Shown piece after piece: positions 12,397 through 32,449 of a DNA stretch of 34,478 nt. The stretch comes from Bacteroides sp. (lineage in GTDB: Bacteria > Bacteroidota > Bacteroidia > Bacteroidales > Muribaculaceae). The stretch lies in assembly GCA_014802345.1 (NCBI GenBank), contig JAAVCM010000016.1, positions 1 through 34,478 on the forward strand, written 5' to 3'. The translations under genes and the position numbers were made by a program. The notes below the pieces were generated by a model. That model saw only the letters and a list, made by a program, of their open reading frames with translations, searched no databases and was not told the DNA's origin. Every line of letters begins with the position of its first letter. Position 1 is the first letter of the stretch.

Positions 12397-12428
12397 CAAA
12401 AATAGCAAATTACCTTGTCGCTGCCAAA
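12397..12428 (-). promoter_or_regulatory. Predicted promoter for the HIT gene
   Basis: Minus strand TTTG (12425-12428) - 20 nt - TATTTTTG (12397-12404). Confidence 0.6.
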
Positions 12429-12443
12429 CCTTTTCGGTGGAGT

Positions 12444-12474
12444 TTTGAAAATCGGCTATAAAGATGTATATTTG
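12444..12474 (+). promoter_or_regulatory. Predicted promoter for the MntA-like nucleotidyltransferase
   Basis: TTTG (12444-12447) - 19 nt - TATATTTG (12467-12474); ATG at 12499. Confidence 0.65.
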
Positions 12475-12498
12475 CATCTAATAAAAATATTGAGAGGT

Positions 12499-12801
12499 AT
12501 GTTTAATCCTGCCAATAATTACCTATTACCCCTTATAAGGGGATTTTTTACCACTCAGCCTGTGGTGAAAGCATGGCTGTTTGGCTCATATTCGCGTGGA
12601 GAAGAGCGTCCGGATAGTGATATTGATTTGCTTGTGACCTACGATCCACATACGCGTGTATCCTTGATGACAATTTCCCGAATGATCTGCTCTCTGTCAA
12701 AAATAGTCGGTCGTAAAGTAGATATTGTGGAAGAGGAGGGGTTGAGATCTTTTGCAAGACCGTCTGTTAATCGTGATCGCATACTGATTTATGAGAGATA
12801 G
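12499..12801 (+). CDS. mntA: MntA-like nucleotidyltransferase (type VII TA antitoxin family)
   Basis: WLFGSYSRGEERPDSDIDLLVTY carries GSxxxGxxxxxSDxDL; start moved to the internal ATG downstream of the promoter; stop overlaps the hepT-like start (12791). Confidence 0.85.
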   Translation: MFNPANNYLLPLIRGFFTTQPVVKAWLFGSYSRGEERPDSDIDLLVTYDPHTRVSLMTISRMICSLSKIVGRKVDIVEEEGLRSFARPSVNRDRILIYER

Positions 12802-22867: not shown

Positions 22868-23001
22868 GGGATATATCTTTGGTTAAAGTGTGGATGATTA
22901 TTATTGGTTTTTAATAAATGCAAAGATGGCGATTTTTATTGCCAAAACAAAACGGATGCCCGAAAAAAATGCTTAAATTTGTCTCAAAACCATCTATCGT
23001 C

Positions 23002-23781
23002 ATGCAGACTGTCCTATTCCATTCCACTATTTTCGGTCCCATACGCTCGCGTCGTCTGGGAGTGTCGCTGGGCGTTAACCTTACGCCCGACGACGGTAAG
23101 ATTTGCTCGTTTGACTGCCTTTATTGCGAGGCGGGATTCAATGCGCAGGGCCCCGGCACCACCGGCTTCCCTCCGCGTGAGCGGGTGGCGCGCCTTCTGG
23201 AATCGCGTCTGAAAAACATGAGCGAGGCTGGCGAACCGCTTGACGTAATCACCTTTTCGGGCAACGGCGAGCCGACCCTGCATCCTGATTTCGGAGGTGT
23301 GATTGCCGACACGATTGCCATCCGCGACAAGTATTATCCCTCGGCGAAGGTGAGTGTCCTGAGCAACTCGACCCGCCTTGACCGCGACGACGTGGCTGCC
23401 GCTCTCAGGACGGTCGACAACAACATTCTCAAATTGGACTCCGCAATCACGGAGACGATGCACCTGATTGACCGCCCCAACAATCCGGCTTTCACTTCTG
23501 AAAAAGCCATTGCCGATATAGCCCGCTTCGGCGGTCAATGTATCGTACAGACGATGTTCCTGCGCGGAGAATTCGAGGGCCGGAAGATTGACAATACTGT
23601 CGGTACTGAGGTCGATGCGCTGATTGATGCATACAACAGAATCCGTCCCCGGGAGATTATGATTTATTCAATAGACCGCAAGACTCCTGCGGAGTCGCTT
23701 GAAAAAGTGAGCCGCGAGGAGCTTGAAAGGATAGGGGAGCGCATAGCTTCCGCGACAGGTATTCCTGTTCAGGTAGCCTGA
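23002..23781 (+). CDS. Radical SAM protein
   Basis: RRLGVSLGVNLTPDDGKICSFDCLYCEAGF (CxxxCxxC), FSGNGEPTLHPDF; start placed at MQTVLFHSTIFGP, downstream of TAAATTTG at 22974-22981. Confidence 0.92.
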   Translation: MQTVLFHSTIFGPIRSRRLGVSLGVNLTPDDGKICSFDCLYCEAGFNAQGPGTTGFPPRERVARLLESRLKNMSEAGEPLDVITFSGNGEPTLHPDFGGVIADTIAIRDKYYPSAKVSVLSNSTRLDRDDVAAALRTVDNNILKLDSAITETMHLIDRPNNPAFTSEKAIADIARFGGQCIVQTMFLRGEFEGRKIDNTVGTEVDALIDAYNRIRPREIMIYSIDRKTPAESLEKVSREELERIGERIASATGIPVQVA

Positions 23782-23862
23782 ATACGGTCAACAGATTTTT
23801 CGGGTCACACATATATTAATATACAGAAGCAAAAATCCTCAACACCCAAATAAAGAGTCACG

Positions 23863-24777
23863 ATGTCCGACCTTCCAGTCCTCACTCCGCGTCCGCTTCG
23901 CCGAGGCGACCGCATAGCCATCGTTTCACCTGCCGGAATCATCAAGCCGCAGGTGGTCTACAATTGTCTGCCTATCCTTGCCGACCGTGGGTGGATTCCC
24001 TACGTCGGGCTCAACACATTCAACCGTGAGGGAACCTACGCGGGTACTGACGATGAACGCTACGAGGATCTTGAAGCCGCGCTGCTCGACCCGGACACGA
24101 GGGCTATCCTCTGCGCACGCGGTGGCTACGGTGCTGTCCATCTGCTTGAGCGGCTCGACAAGTTGCCGCTACGCGACGACCCGAAATGGGTGGTCGGTTA
24201 CAGCGACATCTCCGCGCTTCACGCGCTGATGACACGGAAGGGGATAAAATCAATCCACGCTCCGATGACAAAGCACATAGCCGAAAATCTCGGACGGGAC
24301 GACGATTCACTTCTCTTGTTCAGCGAACTTGAAGGTGCGACACCCGACATTGAGGTGGAGGGTCACTGGCTGAACCGTCCGGGTCACGCGGAGGGACTGC
24401 TCGTCGGTGGAAATCTCGCGGTGATAAGCGCGCTTGTCTCGACTCCGTTTGATGTCATCCGTCCCGGTCGCATACTTTTCATCGAGGATATAGCCGAGCC
24501 TATATATAAGGTGGAACGTATCCTCTACACTCTGCTTCTTAGCGGTGCGCTCAGTTCGCTGGCCGGACTCATAGTCGGACAATTCACCGACTATGCTCCG
24601 GACAGAAATTCGCAGACGATGGAGGAGATGATTTCACGGATGGTCGCACCTTTCGGTTTTCCTGTTGCCTACGGATTTCCTGTCGGTCATGTCGATCACA
24701 ATGTGCCGATGATTTGCTCATCGACGGTCAGGCTCGATGTCACCCTTAACTCTTCAACTCTCGTGACCGTAGGGTAG
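23863..24777 (+). CDS. LD-carboxypeptidase (peptidase S66 family)
   Basis: RRGDRIAIVSPAG; AILCARGGYGAVHLLERLD; WVVGYSDISALHALMTRKGIKSIHAPM; GRILFIEDIAEPIYKVERILYTLLLSG. Confidence 0.95.
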   Translation: MSDLPVLTPRPLRRGDRIAIVSPAGIIKPQVVYNCLPILADRGWIPYVGLNTFNREGTYAGTDDERYEDLEAALLDPDTRAILCARGGYGAVHLLERLDKLPLRDDPKWVVGYSDISALHALMTRKGIKSIHAPMTKHIAENLGRDDDSLLLFSELEGATPDIEVEGHWLNRPGHAEGLLVGGNLAVISALVSTPFDVIRPGRILFIEDIAEPIYKVERILYTLLLSGALSSLAGLIVGQFTDYAPDRNSQTMEEMISRMVAPFGFPVAYGFPVGHVDHNVPMICSSTVRLDVTLNSSTLVTVG

Positions 24778-25036
24778 GGGAGGGGTATGGCGCATAGGAA
24801 GGATAGATTTAGAAACGTACAATTGTCTTTTAATTTTTAATTAATACGTTTTAGATACCCCCTTAAATAGATAGTTTGCGCTTGAATTTAACCCTTTCAG
24901 ACTTCCAAATTCATGTCCTCCCGTCCGAATCTCTCCGAATATTCAATTCTCAGAGGCTTTAAAATCGGATAAGTATTGATATAATAGAGCGTTAGGTGTG
25001 ATTTTTATATGTCGGACGAGAGGTTGATTTAAAAAT

Positions 25037-25068
25037 TTTGACGTTGATTGAAAAATTGTGTAACTTTG
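25037..25068 (+). promoter_or_regulatory. Predicted ybeY promoter
   Basis: TTTG (25037-25040) - 20 nt - TAACTTTG (25061-25068); ATG at 25073. Confidence 0.7.
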
Positions 25069-25072
25069 TGAC

Positions 25073-25501
25073 ATGAACAAAATAGAGTGGCTCACCGACG
25101 GGGCGACAAAAATGCCCGAAATTGACACCGCGCGTCTTGACAAATGGATTGCAGCGGTGGCGGCCTCACACAACCGCATAGTCGGCCCTCTCACCTATAT
25201 CTTTTGCGATGACCCGAAAATTATCGAGGTCAACCGTCAATTTCTCAATCACGATTATTTTACGGACATCATCACCTTCGATTACAGTCGCGGGCGCATG
25301 ATTTCAGGCGATATGTTTATTTCACTCGACACCGTCGAGTCCAATTCCGTGATGGTGGGCGCCACATACGAGCGTGAACTGCTCCGAGTGATAATCCACG
25401 GCGTGCTGCATCTATGTGGCATCAACGATAAGGGCCCCGGTGAGCGTGAAATTATGGAATCATTTGAAAATAAAGCACTTACAATTTTAGATGAGATTTG
25501 A
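25073..25501 (+). CDS. ybeY: Endoribonuclease YbeY
   Basis: LNHDYFTDIITFDYS; RELLRVIIHGVLHLCGINDKGPGEREIME (HGxLHLxGxDH-like metal site). Confidence 0.94.
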   Translation: MNKIEWLTDGATKMPEIDTARLDKWIAAVAASHNRIVGPLTYIFCDDPKIIEVNRQFLNHDYFTDIITFDYSRGRMISGDMFISLDTVESNSVMVGATYERELLRVIIHGVLHLCGINDKGPGEREIMESFENKALTILDEI

Positions 25502-27371
25502 CTATGACGTTATTGTCATAGGTGCGGGCCACGCAGGTTGTGAGGCGGCTCACGCTGCCGCACGTCTTGGCGTCAGAACCCTGCTGATGACAATTGATAT
25601 GAACAAGATTGCCCAGATGAGTTGCAATCCCGCAGTAGGCGGAATTGCCAAGGGGCAGATCGTGAGGGAAATCGACGCTCTCGGGGGCATGATGGGTATT
25701 GTCACCGACGAGAGTGCCATCCAGTTCCGTATGCTCAACCGCTCAAAGGGCCCTGCCATGTGGAGTCCGCGCGCACAGAGCGACCGCATGGAGTTCTCGC
25801 GTCTGTGGCGTGAGATTCTTGAAAACACTCCCGGCCTCGATATATGGCAGGATGCTGCAAATTCTCTGGTTATTGAGGATGGATGTGTGAAAGGTGTCAG
25901 GACTGTGCTTGGAGTGACCTTTACGGCAAAAAGCGTCGTGCTGACCGCAGGTACCTTCCTCAACGGTCTGATGCACATCGGACCGGTGAAGGTTCAGGGA
26001 GGACGTGTGGCCGAGCCTGCGTCGTCTGGTCTCACCGAGCAGTTGCGCTCACTCGGATTTGTCACCGACCGCATGAAGACGGGAACCCCCGTACGCATCG
26101 ACGGCCGTTCTGTCAACTGGGAGCTGACGACATTGCAGGAGGGGGAAAATGATTTCCATAAATTTTCCTATCTGACGAATATCCACCGCAAGCTCCGTCA
26201 GCGTCCGTGTCACACGGTCTACACAAACCCAGAGACACACCGCATACTCCGCGAAGGGCTGCCGGACTCGCCGCTCTACAACGGACAGATCAAAAGTATC
26301 GGCCCGCGCTACTGTCCGAGTATCGAGACGAAGATTGTCACCTTTGCCGACAAGAACGAACATCAGCTTTTCCTCGAACCCGAAGGGGAGGTGACGCAGG
26401 AATATTACCTTAACGGCTTCTCCTCGTCGCTCCCGGTCGACATTCAGATTCGTGCGTTGGAGACTATTCCAGCTTTGAAGGAGGTTCAGATCTATCGTCC
26501 GGGCTACGCTATCGAATATGACTTTTTTGACCCGACCCAGCTTTATCACTCTCTGGAGACGAAGCTAGTCAGCGGTCTCTATTTTGCCGGTCAGGTCAAC
26601 GGAACGACCGGCTACGAGGAAGCCGCAGGTCAGGGTCTCGTTGCCGGAATCAACGCCGCCCTCAAAGTCAAGGGGGAGGCTCCCTTCACTCTTGCGCGCG
26701 ATGAGGCATATATCGGAGTGCTGATTGATGACCTCGTGACGAAGGGTGTCGATGAACCTTACCGAATGTTCACCTCGCGTGCCGAGTATCGCATACTGCT
26801 TCGTCAGGACGATGCGGATATGCGCCTTACTCCCCGGGGTCACTCCGTAGGGCTTGCTTCGGATTACCGCTATGAAATCATGGAAAGCAAGCGCCGCCAG
26901 CGTGACGCGCTGATTGATTTCTGCCGTGAGTTCTCCGTCAAGACAGCCCTTATAAATCCCTACTTGGAGAGCATCGGGGAACAGCCGCTGAAACAAGGTG
27001 TGAAACTTTATGACCTCGTCCTCCGTCCGGCACTCACCATCCGTATCCTTGCCGAAGGAATCGCTCCTCTGGCAGAATTTATCGGAAAGGAAATCGAGGA
27101 GGCACGACGCGATGAAATCATTGAAGCAGCCGAGATACTCATCAAGTATCAGGGCTACATCCAGCGCGAAAGCCAGATTGCCGACAAGCTCCGGCGATTG
27201 GAGAATCTTGTCATCCGCGGGAAAATTGACTATTCGAAACTGACCACCCTCTCGACCGAGGCACGTCAGAAACTTGAAAAAATCAATCCTGAAACCATAG
27301 CGCAGGCATCGCGCATCCCCGGCATATCTCCGGCCGACATCAATATTCTGCTCCTCCTTTTAGGACGATGA
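25491..27371 (+). CDS. mnmG: tRNA uridine-5-carboxymethylaminomethyl modification enzyme MnmG/GidA
   Basis: YDVIVIGAGHAGCEAAHAAARLG; MSCNPAVGGIAKGQIVREIDALGG; full 626 aa. Confidence 0.98.
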   Translation: MRFDYDVIVIGAGHAGCEAAHAAARLGVRTLLMTIDMNKIAQMSCNPAVGGIAKGQIVREIDALGGMMGIVTDESAIQFRMLNRSKGPAMWSPRAQSDRMEFSRLWREILENTPGLDIWQDAANSLVIEDGCVKGVRTVLGVTFTAKSVVLTAGTFLNGLMHIGPVKVQGGRVAEPASSGLTEQLRSLGFVTDRMKTGTPVRIDGRSVNWELTTLQEGENDFHKFSYLTNIHRKLRQRPCHTVYTNPETHRILREGLPDSPLYNGQIKSIGPRYCPSIETKIVTFADKNEHQLFLEPEGEVTQEYYLNGFSSSLPVDIQIRALETIPALKEVQIYRPGYAIEYDFFDPTQLYHSLETKLVSGLYFAGQVNGTTGYEEAAGQGLVAGINAALKVKGEAPFTLARDEAYIGVLIDDLVTKGVDEPYRMFTSRAEYRILLRQDDADMRLTPRGHSVGLASDYRYEIMESKRRQRDALIDFCREFSVKTALINPYLESIGEQPLKQGVKLYDLVLRPALTIRILAEGIAPLAEFIGKEIEEARRDEIIEAAEILIKYQGYIQRESQIADKLRRLENLVIRGKIDYSKLTTLSTEARQKLEKINPETIAQASRIPGISPADINILLLLLGR

Positions 27372-27377
27372 AATTAT

Positions 27378-27393
27378 TGTTTCACGTGAAACA
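27378..27393. promoter_or_regulatory. parS: parS centromere-like site (ParB-binding), TGTTTCACGTGAAACA
   Basis: Exact 16-bp palindrome identical to the canonical chromosomal parS consensus; symmetry extends to ATTGTTTCACGTGAAACAAT (27376-27395); intergenic, immediately 3' of mnmG. Confidence 0.88.
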
Positions 27394-27466
27394 ATCCTTG
27401 AAAAATTCTTTATCCTCTACTCTCCATCTCTCATCATAGACCCTAAACTTAATACTTAAAATAAAA

Positions 27467-27985
27467 ATGGAATACCTCAAAAGACGCATCCGCGATGTCT
27501 ATGACTTCCCCAAAAAAGGCATAATCTTCCGCGACATCACAACCCTTCTCAAAGACCCACGCGGTCTGCATATCATCGGCTGGGACCTTTCGCAGCTCTA
27601 CCGCGACAAAGGTGTGACCAAGGTGGTCGGCATCGAGTCGCGCGGCTTCATCGGCGGTTCAATCCTTGCGTTTGAACTCGGCGCAGGTTTCGTCCCTGTA
27701 CGCAAGCCGGGCAAACTTCCTGCTGACACCATCAGCACTTCATACGATAAGGAATATGGCAAGGACGTCGTAGAAATCCACCGCGATGCAATCACCCCCG
27801 ACGATATTGTCGTTATCCATGACGATGTCCTCGCCACCGGCGGAACAATGGCCGCTGCCTATGAGCTTGTGAAGTCAATGAACCCGAAGAAAATCTACAT
27901 CAACTTCATCATTGAGCTTCTTGACCTCAAAGGCCGCGAAAACCTCCCCGCCGAAGCCGAGGTCACTTCGCTTATCACTTATTGA
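27467..27985 (+). CDS. apt: Adenine phosphoribosyltransferase
   Basis: IRDVYDFPKKGIIFRDITTLLKDP; VVGIESRGFIGGSILAFELGAGFVPVRKPGKLP; VVIHDDVLATGGTMAAA. Confidence 0.97.
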   Translation: MEYLKRRIRDVYDFPKKGIIFRDITTLLKDPRGLHIIGWDLSQLYRDKGVTKVVGIESRGFIGGSILAFELGAGFVPVRKPGKLPADTISTSYDKEYGKDVVEIHRDAITPDDIVVIHDDVLATGGTMAAAYELVKSMNPKKIYINFIIELLDLKGRENLPAEAEVTSLITY

Positions 27986-27990
27986 TTGGA

Positions 27991-28028
27991 AAGTCGGACT
28001 CGTCGGGCGCGTCTGACAAGTCCGACTT
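27991..28028. repeat. Intergenic 9-bp-periodic palindromic element
   Basis: GTCGGACTC / GTCGGGCGC / GTCTGACAA / GTCCGACTT in exact 9-bp register (27993-28028); outer arms AAGTCGGAC and GTCCGACTT are inverted repeats. Confidence 0.75.
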
Positions 28029-28055
28029 CCATCCCCCACGCTTAATCCTCAATCT

Positions 28056-29873
28056 ATGGCCAAACACAAAAAATCGGCATCACTGACAGAGAAAATATCT
28101 ATCCTTCCCGATACCCCCGGCGTGTATATGTACTATGACGCCGAGGGTACGGTTATCTATGTCGGTAAGGCCAAAAATCTCAAGCGGCGTGTCAGCTCCT
28201 ACTTCAACCGCACGCATGACAGCCTTCGGACCAACCTGCTTGTCCGGGCGATTGTCGACATGAGCTATATCGTCGTGCCGACCGAACAGGATGCACTCAA
28301 TCTTGAAGCATCCATGATCAAGGAGTATCAGCCACGCTACAATGTACTCCTGAAAGACGACAAATCCTATCCGTGGATAGTCGTCACCAACGAGCCTTAT
28401 CCGCGTGTGTTCATGACACGCCAGCGTGTGAAGGACGGTTCGAAATACTATGGCCCGTACACCGACACCGGGTCGGCGCGCGCCACTCTTGAACTCGTCA
28501 AGAAAATCTATGCCGTCCGTTCATGTCGGCCGCCGATGACGCTCGAATGGGTCAAGGCAGGAAAAGGCCGTCTCTGTCTCGACTATCATCTTAAGAGATG
28601 CAAGGGGTGTTGTGTCGGGCTTATCTCCCCCGAGGACTACAACCGCGACATCGACAAAATCCGCTCTATCCTCCGTGGCGACACAGGCGAACTGCTGACC
28701 TATCTACGCGGTGAGATGGAGAAGCTGGCTGCCGAACTGCGCTTCGAGGAGGCGCAGGAACTTAAAGAGCAATATGACCTCATCAAGCGCTATCAGGCAA
28801 AGAGCGTCATCGTCTCGCAGACCATCGAGGATATTGACGTGTTCGGTATCGACGACGAAGAGGCGGATGTCTACATCAACTATATGCACGTCCGCCACGG
28901 AGCTGTCGTGAAGTCCGTCACCCTTGAATTCAAACGCCGCCTCGATGAGTCGCGCGCACAGCTTCTCGGCTATGCCATGTCGGAGATTTCCGAGTCGCTC
29001 GGAGTGAAATTCTCAGAGGTCATTGTGGCTGAGGAGCCGGATGTCGAGATGCCCGATGTCCGTTTCATCATCCCTCAGCGTGGCGACAAAGCAAAGCTCC
29101 TTGAAGTCTCGGAGAAAAATGCGCGGCAGCATCGCGTCGATAAAATCAAGACGATGGAGAAGCGCAATCCCGAGACACGTACCGAGCGCATCCTTCAGCG
29201 GATTCAGTCTGATTTCCACCTGTCCGAGTTGCCCCGCCACATCGAATGTTTCGACAACTCGAATATTCAGGGTACGAATCCTGTTGCCTCGTGTGTCGTG
29301 TTCAAGGATGCAAAACCGAGCAAGAAGGACTACCGTCACTTCAACATAAAGACTGTTGTCGGGCCTGACGACTTCGCTTCGATGAAGGAGGTGCTGACGC
29401 GACGCTACACGCGTCTGGTCAACGAGGGCCGTTCCCTTCCGCAGCTCATAGTGGTCGACGGCGGAAAGGGCCAGTTGTCGGCTGCCGTCGAAGCCCTCGA
29501 CGAAATGGGGCTTCGCGGTAAAATCGCGGTGGTCGGCATAGCCAAGCGACTTGAAGAAATATATTTTCCCGGCGATAGCATCCCGCTCTACATCGACAAG
29601 AACAGCGAGACACTGCGCGTCGTGCAGCAGCTACGCGACGAGGCTCACCGCTTCGGTATCACCCACCACCGTAACCGTCGAAGCAAGACGCAGGCCGTCT
29701 CCGAACTTGACGGGATAAAAGGAGTCGGAGAGAAAACACGCACTGCACTGCTCACGCATTTCAAGAGCGTCAAACGTCTGCGCGAGGCTGACCTCGATAC
29801 GATAGCCGAGGTCATTGGGGCTGCCAAGGCTTCGGTCGTCTACGGAGCCATCCACGGAGAGCAAACCGAATGA
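28056..29873 (+). CDS. uvrC: Excinuclease ABC subunit C
   Basis: LPDTPGVYMYYDAEGTVIYVGKAKNLKRRVSSYF (GIY-YIG); IECFDNSNIQGTNPVASCVVF; C-terminal HhH. Confidence 0.98.
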   Translation: MAKHKKSASLTEKISILPDTPGVYMYYDAEGTVIYVGKAKNLKRRVSSYFNRTHDSLRTNLLVRAIVDMSYIVVPTEQDALNLEASMIKEYQPRYNVLLKDDKSYPWIVVTNEPYPRVFMTRQRVKDGSKYYGPYTDTGSARATLELVKKIYAVRSCRPPMTLEWVKAGKGRLCLDYHLKRCKGCCVGLISPEDYNRDIDKIRSILRGDTGELLTYLRGEMEKLAAELRFEEAQELKEQYDLIKRYQAKSVIVSQTIEDIDVFGIDDEEADVYINYMHVRHGAVVKSVTLEFKRRLDESRAQLLGYAMSEISESLGVKFSEVIVAEEPDVEMPDVRFIIPQRGDKAKLLEVSEKNARQHRVDKIKTMEKRNPETRTERILQRIQSDFHLSELPRHIECFDNSNIQGTNPVASCVVFKDAKPSKKDYRHFNIKTVVGPDDFASMKEVLTRRYTRLVNEGRSLPQLIVVDGGKGQLSAAVEALDEMGLRGKIAVVGIAKRLEEIYFPGDSIPLYIDKNSETLRVVQQLRDEAHRFGITHHRNRRSKTQAVSELDGIKGVGEKTRTALLTHFKSVKRLREADLDTIAEVIGAAKASVVYGAIHGEQTE

Positions 29874-29905
29874 ATATCGGGGCGGACAGCCCCGATATTT
29901 TTTTT
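29873..29905 (+). terminator. Rho-independent terminator after uvrC
   Basis: AATATCGGGGC-GGACA-GCCCCGATATT followed by a T-run. Confidence 0.9.
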
Positions 29906-30047
29906 GTCCATACAGTTTTGCATTAACGCACCTCCGCCCGTCGTTACACATAGTAATTTTGCAATGCGTTTGATTCCGGTGAGTGATTCCCCCTGTGTCC
30001 CCTCGCCATTCCGACATTCTCTAAACTTAACCCCTAAACTTTAACCT

Positions 30048-30434
30048 ATGCTATTGCTGATTCTTCTGGACTATCTGTGTGTATTTATTTCCGTGATTGC
30101 CGATCTAGTCAGCGGAGTGTGCAAGGCTCGCCGACGTGGTGAGAAATGCACCTCCGCAGGTCTGCGCCGGACCGTCGACAAAATCGGCCGCTACTACCTC
30201 GCTCTCTTTTCCATGACGGTTATTGATGTGCTGCTTCTTGCCTCTCTGAGCTATTTCGAGGATGAAGGTCTGAACTTCTGTCCGCTTTTCCCCTACATGA
30301 CGACATTCGGCGCACTGTCGCTCTCGCTGATTGAAGTGAAAAGCATCTGCGAGGCTTCGGACGAGAAAGGCGACTTCCGCGAGGGAGTTTCGGCTCTCCT
30401 TACAATGCTCAGGAATCTCTCTTTCCTCCGATAG
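30048..30434 (+). CDS. Phage-holin-like small membrane protein
   Basis: 128 aa; LLILLDYLCVFISVIADLVSGVCKARRRGEKCTSAGLRRTVDKIGRYYLALFSMTVIDVLL resembles Bacteroidetes phage-holin-family proteins. Confidence 0.68.
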   Translation: MLLLILLDYLCVFISVIADLVSGVCKARRRGEKCTSAGLRRTVDKIGRYYLALFSMTVIDVLLLASLSYFEDEGLNFCPLFPYMTTFGALSLSLIEVKSICEASDEKGDFREGVSALLTMLRNLSFLR

Positions 30435-30477
30435 TGTGGATATGGCGGATGAATGATGAGATAAATGATTCGTAAAA

Positions 30478-30509
30478 ATTGTAATTTTTTACAAAATATC
30501 CTACTTTTG
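30478..30509 (+). promoter_or_regulatory. Predicted promoter of the secreted LRR-like gene
   Basis: ATTG (30478-30481) - 20 nt - TACTTTTG (30502-30509). Confidence 0.6.
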
Positions 30510-30598
30510 TCCTTTGATTCATAAAGTGTGGGATTTTAGCTTTCTCAAACTGAAAACAGATACTTTTACATAACCAACCTTAACATTTTTTTCTGCTG

Positions 30599-32449
30599 AT
30601 GAAAAAGATTATCACTATCATCTCAGCCGCTGCAATCACCCTTTCAGCGTCTGCGGAAGTCATCTATTCATGGGAGTCAAACGGCCCCGAGGCTGTCACC
30701 GAGGTCGGCGGTAAGGCTACCGCGAAAGTCGACGAAGTCCGTGTCAACTATCTCAACAAGGCAAAGGATGTCGAGTACTATACCATCTGCCTCTGTGGTA
30801 AGAAGGGTACTTATCCTGAAAGTGCCTACGTCAACGTCACCCTTGACCAGCCACTGGCTGCCGGCGACGTGATTTCGATTACTGCTTTCCGCAACAAGAA
30901 CGAGAGCGGCAAGAATGTGACTGCCGAAATACTTTTCGGTAACGACGTATCCGTTGCCACCACCGAACAGTTCCCCAACATTAACGTTGACGGCGAGAAT
31001 GACGACGCTCCCGGTACCCAGACTCTCGTTGTTCCCGCTGATGCAGCCGGCTGCACCTCTTTCGACATGACCCGTGGTTCTGCCGGAACAAATCTTTTCA
31101 TCACAAAGCTCATGATTACCCGCGAAGGTGGCGAGACCCCCGCACCTTCCGGTGATGTGGCCAATGTCAAACTTTTCTCTTACACCGTGGCTCCCGAGGC
31201 TGTCGGCAAGACAACCTATTTCCAGATTTCGGCTACCGACGGACAGAAGGTTCAGGTCGACTGGGGTAACGGTGAGAAGGCAGAACCCGTAGCACTTGCT
31301 GACTATGACGCTGCCGGATGGGTCTTCACTCAGGTTGCCGGTGAAATCAAGGGTACCACCGTCACCGTCTACGGCGAGAAGATGGAAAACATCAACTATC
31401 TTGATCTCGGTTATGCTGCAACAAACGCTCCCGAGACAAAGCTCCTCACGGTTGACATCAAGGATCTGACTGCTCCTCTCAAGGAGTTCAGCGTGTCAAG
31501 CAACAACATCTCTACCCTTGACCTTTCGGCCAACACCGGTTTCGCTACCGTCAATGCCGGAATGAATGCTCTGACTTCAATCGTACTTCCCGTCAACTCC
31601 GCAATCAAGACTATTGATGTCAGCAATACCGATGCAACCGGTGAAAAGGGTACTAACCGCGTTGCTGCTACCGACTGGTCGGTCCTCACAAACCTCACCG
31701 CTCTCAAGATGAACTATAATGCAGCCGATGCTGAAATTGACCTCGACCTCGGTGCTCTTCCCGAACTCACCACTGTCAACGCCAACGGCTGCAACATCCG
31801 TTCAATCGACGTTTCGAAGAACGCAAAACTGAAGACACTCAACCTTAACGACAACAAGCTCTCGACTCTTGATTTCTCGACCATGCCCGCTAAGTCGATT
31901 GTATTTGCCAACAACAATCAGCTTACTTCAATCAAGGCTACCACTGGCATGACTCGCCTTCAGGTCAAGGACAACAAGCTCGATTTCTCAACCCTCCCCC
32001 TTCAGGAAACACTCGGCATTACTGCTGCCAACAACTATGTCTATGCTCCCCAGCAGGATATGGAAGTTGAGGTGAAGAACGGAGTCGTTGACCTCGCTTC
32101 ACAGGCAATGGTCGGTGAAACCGCAACAGTTTATAGCTGGGTCATTGCTGAGGAAGGTAAGGAACTGGAAGCAATCGAGCAGGGATTCACTGCCGAGGGC
32201 GGCGTGTTCACCTTTACTCAGTCTGTCGCAAATGCAGTCTGCTGCATGACCAATGAGGCACTTCCTTCACTTACACTCAAAACTGTTCCCATGAACATAA
32301 CCGTTGAATCTTCTGCCATCTCTGAAATCGAGGCTGATGATGCTCCCGCTGAGTATTTCAACCTTCAGGGTGTCAAGGTCAGCGGTGACCAGCCCGGTCT
32401 CTACATCCGCCGTCAGGGTGGCAAGACCACAAAGGTTATCGTGAAATAA
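30599..32449 (+). CDS. Secreted protein with leucine-rich-repeat-like region and C-terminal sorting-like tail
   Basis: Signal peptide MKKIITIISAAAITLSASAEV; LRR-like LTTVNANGCNIRSIDVSKNAKLKTLNLNDNKLSTLDFS; C-terminus EYFNLQGVKVSGDQPGLYIRRQGGKTTKVIVK. Confidence 0.85.
   Translation: MKKIITIISAAAITLSASAEVIYSWESNGPEAVTEVGGKATAKVDEVRVNYLNKAKDVEYYTICLCGKKGTYPESAYVNVTLDQPLAAGDVISITAFRNKNESGKNVTAEILFGNDVSVATTEQFPNINVDGENDDAPGTQTLVVPADAAGCTSFDMTRGSAGTNLFITKLMITREGGETPAPSGDVANVKLFSYTVAPEAVGKTTYFQISATDGQKVQVDWGNGEKAEPVALADYDAAGWVFTQVAGEIKGTTVTVYGEKMENINYLDLGYAATNAPETKLLTVDIKDLTAPLKEFSVSSNNISTLDLSANTGFATVNAGMNALTSIVLPVNSAIKTIDVSNTDATGEKGTNRVAATDWSVLTNLTALKMNYNAADAEIDLDLGALPELTTVNANGCNIRSIDVSKNAKLKTLNLNDNKLSTLDFSTMPAKSIVFANNNQLTSIKATTGMTRLQVKDNKLDFSTLPLQETLGITAANNYVYAPQQDMEVEVKNGVVDLASQAMVGETATVYSWVIAEEGKELEAIEQGFTAEGGVFTFTQSVANAVCCMTNEALPSLTLKTVPMNITVESSAISEIEADDAPAEYFNLQGVKVSGDQPGLYIRRQGGKTTKVIVK

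Follow-up and report, generated by a model that had tools for sequence, protein, structure and literature searches.

What is a perfect 20-bp palindrome, ATTGTTTCACGTGAAACAAT, doing in the short gap between mnmG and apt, and does it say anything about where the replication origin lies? The window, i.e., the whole stretch of 34,478 nucleotides analyzed here, has the following features around the palindrome:

25073..25501, + strand: ybeY (TIGR00043), overlapping the start of mnmG
25491..27371, + strand: mnmG (gidA; TIGR00136, 799.5 bits against a cut-off of 524.85), whose 3' end anchors the site
27376..27395, no strand assigned: parS, the perfect 20-bp palindrome
27378-27393: the 16-bp core of parS, TGTTTCACGTGAAACA, with 0 mismatches to the canonical consensus
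27467..27985, + strand: apt, adenine phosphoribosyltransferase (TIGR01090, 201.8 bits), not needed for retention of the site
28056..29873, + strand: uvrC (TIGR00194)

We hold with high confidence that the palindrome serves a Muribaculaceae-type bacterium as its single chromosomal parS (centromere), and it is predicted to load ParB for ParA-driven segregation of the origin. As such it is an ordinary parS, one more example of a known element, and the interesting part is its anchoring at mnmG despite dispersed dnaA and parAB.

An earlier note on this DNA had described an exact canonical parS palindrome in the short mnmG–apt gap as the only match in the window, which was said to contain neither parA nor parB, and all of this is confirmed; parAB is located on contig C19 and dnaA on C29. 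The palindrome is within the 95 bp that separate mnmG from apt, with the core starting six bases past the mnmG stop (27371) and ending 73 bases short of the apt start (27467). No second match is found in the window even with up to three mismatches (0.17 expected by shuffling), and in the 2.67 Mb assembly this is the sole match with at most one mismatch, compared to 0 matches of a reversed-pattern control, so that the scan for scattered copies yielded one site. A single match with two mismatches on contig C9 was not taken as a site, since this number approximately equals the chance expectation. Very probably, the chromosome has no parS other than this palindrome; as the genome is a draft (34 contigs, 87.5% complete), further parS in the missing sequence are possible.

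The strongest evidence for the proposed parS identity is conservation at mnmG. In 80 Bacteroidales loci, selected by MnmG protein similarity with the motif disregarded, GTTYCACGTGRAAC is present within 320 bp downstream of mnmG in 73 (approximately 0.0003 expected by base composition), at a median distance of 11 bp past the last sense codon. Outside the 16-bp core the information drops to 0.04–0.8 bits in these loci; the search predetermined the core letters, but not the drop at the core edges. Conversely, mnmG adjoins 55 of 59 loci selected by the motif alone, as well as 21 out of 27 further phylum-level loci. Of 392 Bacteroidales genomes 334 contain the motif, as do 276 of 299 Bacteroidota genomes, mostly in one or two copies, reversed-pattern control matches being rare in both surveys. 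In other Bacteroidota families or classes the site lies 5' of mnmG. We have found no relevant literature on a linkage of parS to mnmG or gidA in Bacteroidetes, though the survey of Livny et al. (2007) could already report it; the mnmG anchoring and its extent in the phylum come from the present analysis, with priority subject to earlier surveys.

Two further observations concern copy arrangement. In many Bacteroidota genomes two parS approximately 1.9 kb apart flank mnmG (e.g., G282:C22:4720 and 6621), and Muribaculaceae mostly retain only the 3' one.

The same comparisons bear on the possibility that the palindrome is a transcription-factor operator controlling apt, that is, a CACGTG-type site in the apt leader. 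Its position in the gap directly upstream of apt would suit this role, but the mnmG end retains the site also if a gene other than apt comes next, e.g., in Parabacteroides loci with 6 kb flank, and for this reason we reject the operator, which we regard as very improbable. Moreover, other Bacteroidota have the site 5' of mnmG or flanking this gene on both sides, the sequence matches the universal parS consensus, and the site is missing where ParB is missing: among 24 checked Bacteroidales genomes without GTTYCACGTGRAAC, three (G191, G219, and G385) have no ParB and no site by mnmG, all three ParB-less genomes thus being without parS (3/3).

Slightly less probable still is an intrinsic terminator stem of the mnmG transcript. 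Just past the mnmG stop codon the RNA can fold into a stem of 8 bp closed by a 4-base loop, but the fold is weak (z –1.8), no T tract follows, and a terminator scan gave no match at the site. The conservation across the order is letter by letter, including the would-be loop ACGT, and not by compensating changes. We reject this explanation, as a GC-rich hairpin followed by a run of T is not seen.

If the palindrome is parS, the genome is expected to encode a protein able to read it, and the search for parB proposed in the earlier note identified exactly one ParB_N protein, on contig C19, beside a ParA-family ATPase:

L117:10144-11025, same strand as the ParA-family ATPase ORF and directly downstream of it: ParB ORF
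L117:11098-11928, same strand as ParB and directly upstream of it: ParA-family ATPase ORF

ParB scores 184 bits with the parB_part profile (cut-off 58), while the ATPase ORF stayed below the cut-offs of all equivalog ParA models in the profile search. ParB aligns to the Caulobacter ParB structure 6t1f over residues 5–226 (1.7e-51), and contains the CTP-binding motifs GERR and ENxQR (GERRYRAAK and ENIQRED), which line up with their counterparts in 6t1f. Its residues at the DNA-reading positions, in Caulobacter numbering, are K171, R173, N178, G201, and R204. R173 and G201 are conserved in ParB, with Q and R, respectively, found instead in Noc (PMC7383237). Since both residues match ParB and not Noc, a ParB of the parS-reading type is present, and judging from these residues it should bind the palindrome. 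That a Noc-type paralogue instead reads the palindrome as a Noc-binding site (NBS) is the least credible of the alternatives and is rejected, since, although the Noc/NBS nucleoid occlusion system has a homologous DNA-binding protein and a similar palindrome, and the Noc model TIGR04285 gives our ParB 246 bits, with Noc structures as its best alignments, this score is below the cut-off of 315, ParB has R, F, R, and G where Noc has Q173, K179, K184, and R201, only one ParB_N protein has been found in the genome, and the specificity residues and the DNA are of the ParB/parS kind, the latter being the parS consensus.

With the parS reading preferred, we turn to the suggestion that the site is origin-proximal. 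For three near-closed members of the family (G073, G134, and G049, in this order below), GC skew was sampled in stretches and fitted with a two-state model. The mnmG-linked parS is 80, 14, and 8 kb from the fitted skew origin, with the caveat that the sampling is coarse and, at worst, the 90% bootstrap limit of this distance is 0.28 Mb. On the contrary, dnaA is 0.56, 1.64, and 1.05 Mb, and parB 0.89, 0.69, and 0.58 Mb away from the skew origin. The suggestion is therefore upheld in the relatives, and by analogy with these three the parS of the draft genome is probably origin-proximal as well. The accompanying argument, that mnmG is often near oriC and parAB, holds in part: mnmG is near the skew origin in the relatives, but not near parAB or dnaA, both of which are hundreds of kb from this origin. 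As dnaA is at 0.56–1.64 Mb from the skew origin in these genomes, it marks the origin of Muribaculaceae poorly. This agrees with the passages of the Hi-C study of the OMM12 gut bacteria (PMC10197239) on parS and origins, which describe parS clusters at the origin, including that of Muribaculum intestinale, and dnaA as not always located there. According to a review, par operons and most parS sites are located in the ori domain (PMC7022226); the par operon of the measured Muribaculaceae genomes is an exception to this statement.

The contig of the window itself has no clear switch near parS in the strand-corrected skew at fourfold sites. In the window, the top-strand GC skew turns from + to – at approximately 26–27 kb (region 23000-31000); we rejected this turn as an origin, as its sign is opposite to that of an origin, the gene strand changes there, and the strand-corrected fourfold-site skew shows no switch.

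By analogy with known ParABS biology, ParB binding, clamp loading, spreading, and segregation would proceed as follows. A ParB dimer, encoded together with ParA elsewhere on the chromosome, would read the 16-bp palindrome and close at parS as a CTP-bound clamp, which would then slide to the adjacent DNA (mnmG, apt, and uvrC), and ParA-ATP would move the ParB–DNA complex so that the replicated origin regions reach opposite cell halves. We do not include Smc-ScpAB loading in this scheme, because ScpB was not found above the family cut-off in any of ten Muribaculaceae genomes, though ParABS is present. Condensin loading, the usual downstream step, may be absent or performed by something else; the OMM12 study (PMC10197239), in the part dealing with condensins, gives no known ones for two Bacteroidetes.

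The site shares with chromosomal parS of the ParABS systems of Bacillus subtilis (Spo0J) and Caulobacter (ParB) the 16-bp consensus, low copy number, an intergenic position that in the relatives is near the origin, and a ParB with parS-reading residues. It differs from them in that, in the Muribaculaceae examined, a long distance separates parAB and dnaA from the origin and parS, the site keeps to the 3' end of mnmG, and ScpB is not found above the cut-off. In the OMM12 study (Muribaculum intestinale and Bacteroides caecimuris), parS sites were called with the same consensus, and its passages on parS and origins do not mention mnmG, the anchoring to which was computed here.

Not all genomes retain the canonical sequence. 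In several other genomes without GTTYCACGTGRAAC, a near-parS palindrome, one mismatch off, is found at the same place, and in some Bacteroidales with ParB no site is recognizable near mnmG. In G263 and G837, the two members sampled from one Bacteroidales genus, parS at the mnmG end is replaced by another palindrome:

L273, approximately 16 bp past mnmG (G263), and L350 (G837): TGTTCCGCGCGGAACA site, with ParB in L249 and L338

ParB of both genomes has alanine for glycine at position 201. Among approximately 50 genomes compared, the TGTTCCGCGCGGAACA palindrome occurs in no other genome, and alanine at this position occurs outside the pair only in G309, a member of lineage f2. ParB proteins of this lineage, which comprises one family (G309, G242, and G149; L255, L259, and L265), have changes at R173, G201, or R204, positions described as conserved, and its mnmG loci (L268, L269, and L270), where a site is recognizable, have altered palindromes such as TTTTCACGTGAAAA 5' of mnmG. 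The combination of TGTTCCGCGCGGAACA, in place of parS, with Ala201 is a possible natural specificity shift. The co-changes of ParB and its site in G263/G837 and in f2 represent few independent events, and should be considered leads rather than proof.

These observations suggest a broader picture, which we offer tentatively, at somewhat below even probability: the Bacteroidota centromere would be anchored to mnmG (3', 5', or both) while dnaA and parAB are dispersed, in Muribaculaceae it would work without Smc-ScpAB, and ParB recognition residues would have changed alongside drifted sites, with the anchor exposing natural shifts of ParB–parS specificity. Due to the fixed position, centromere DNA can be read in lineages with a changed ParB, so that ParB–parS co-evolution can be studied. 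In practice, parS allows the origin region to be located by a single motif in Bacteroidota genomes, for which dnaA is misleading; this helps to estimate growth rates from sequencing coverage and to order contigs. It also raises the question why parS remains tied to mnmG when the parAB genes do not.

Among the genomes compared, the closest named relative of the source of the window is a Duncaniella sp. MAG (MnmG identity 83%), which places this source among Muribaculaceae-type Bacteroidales. A small ORF at 12415-12801 of the window has, as judged by eye, the GSYSRGEERPDSDIDLLV motif known from nucleotidyltransferase-domain proteins, and possibly encodes an MntA-type antitoxin.
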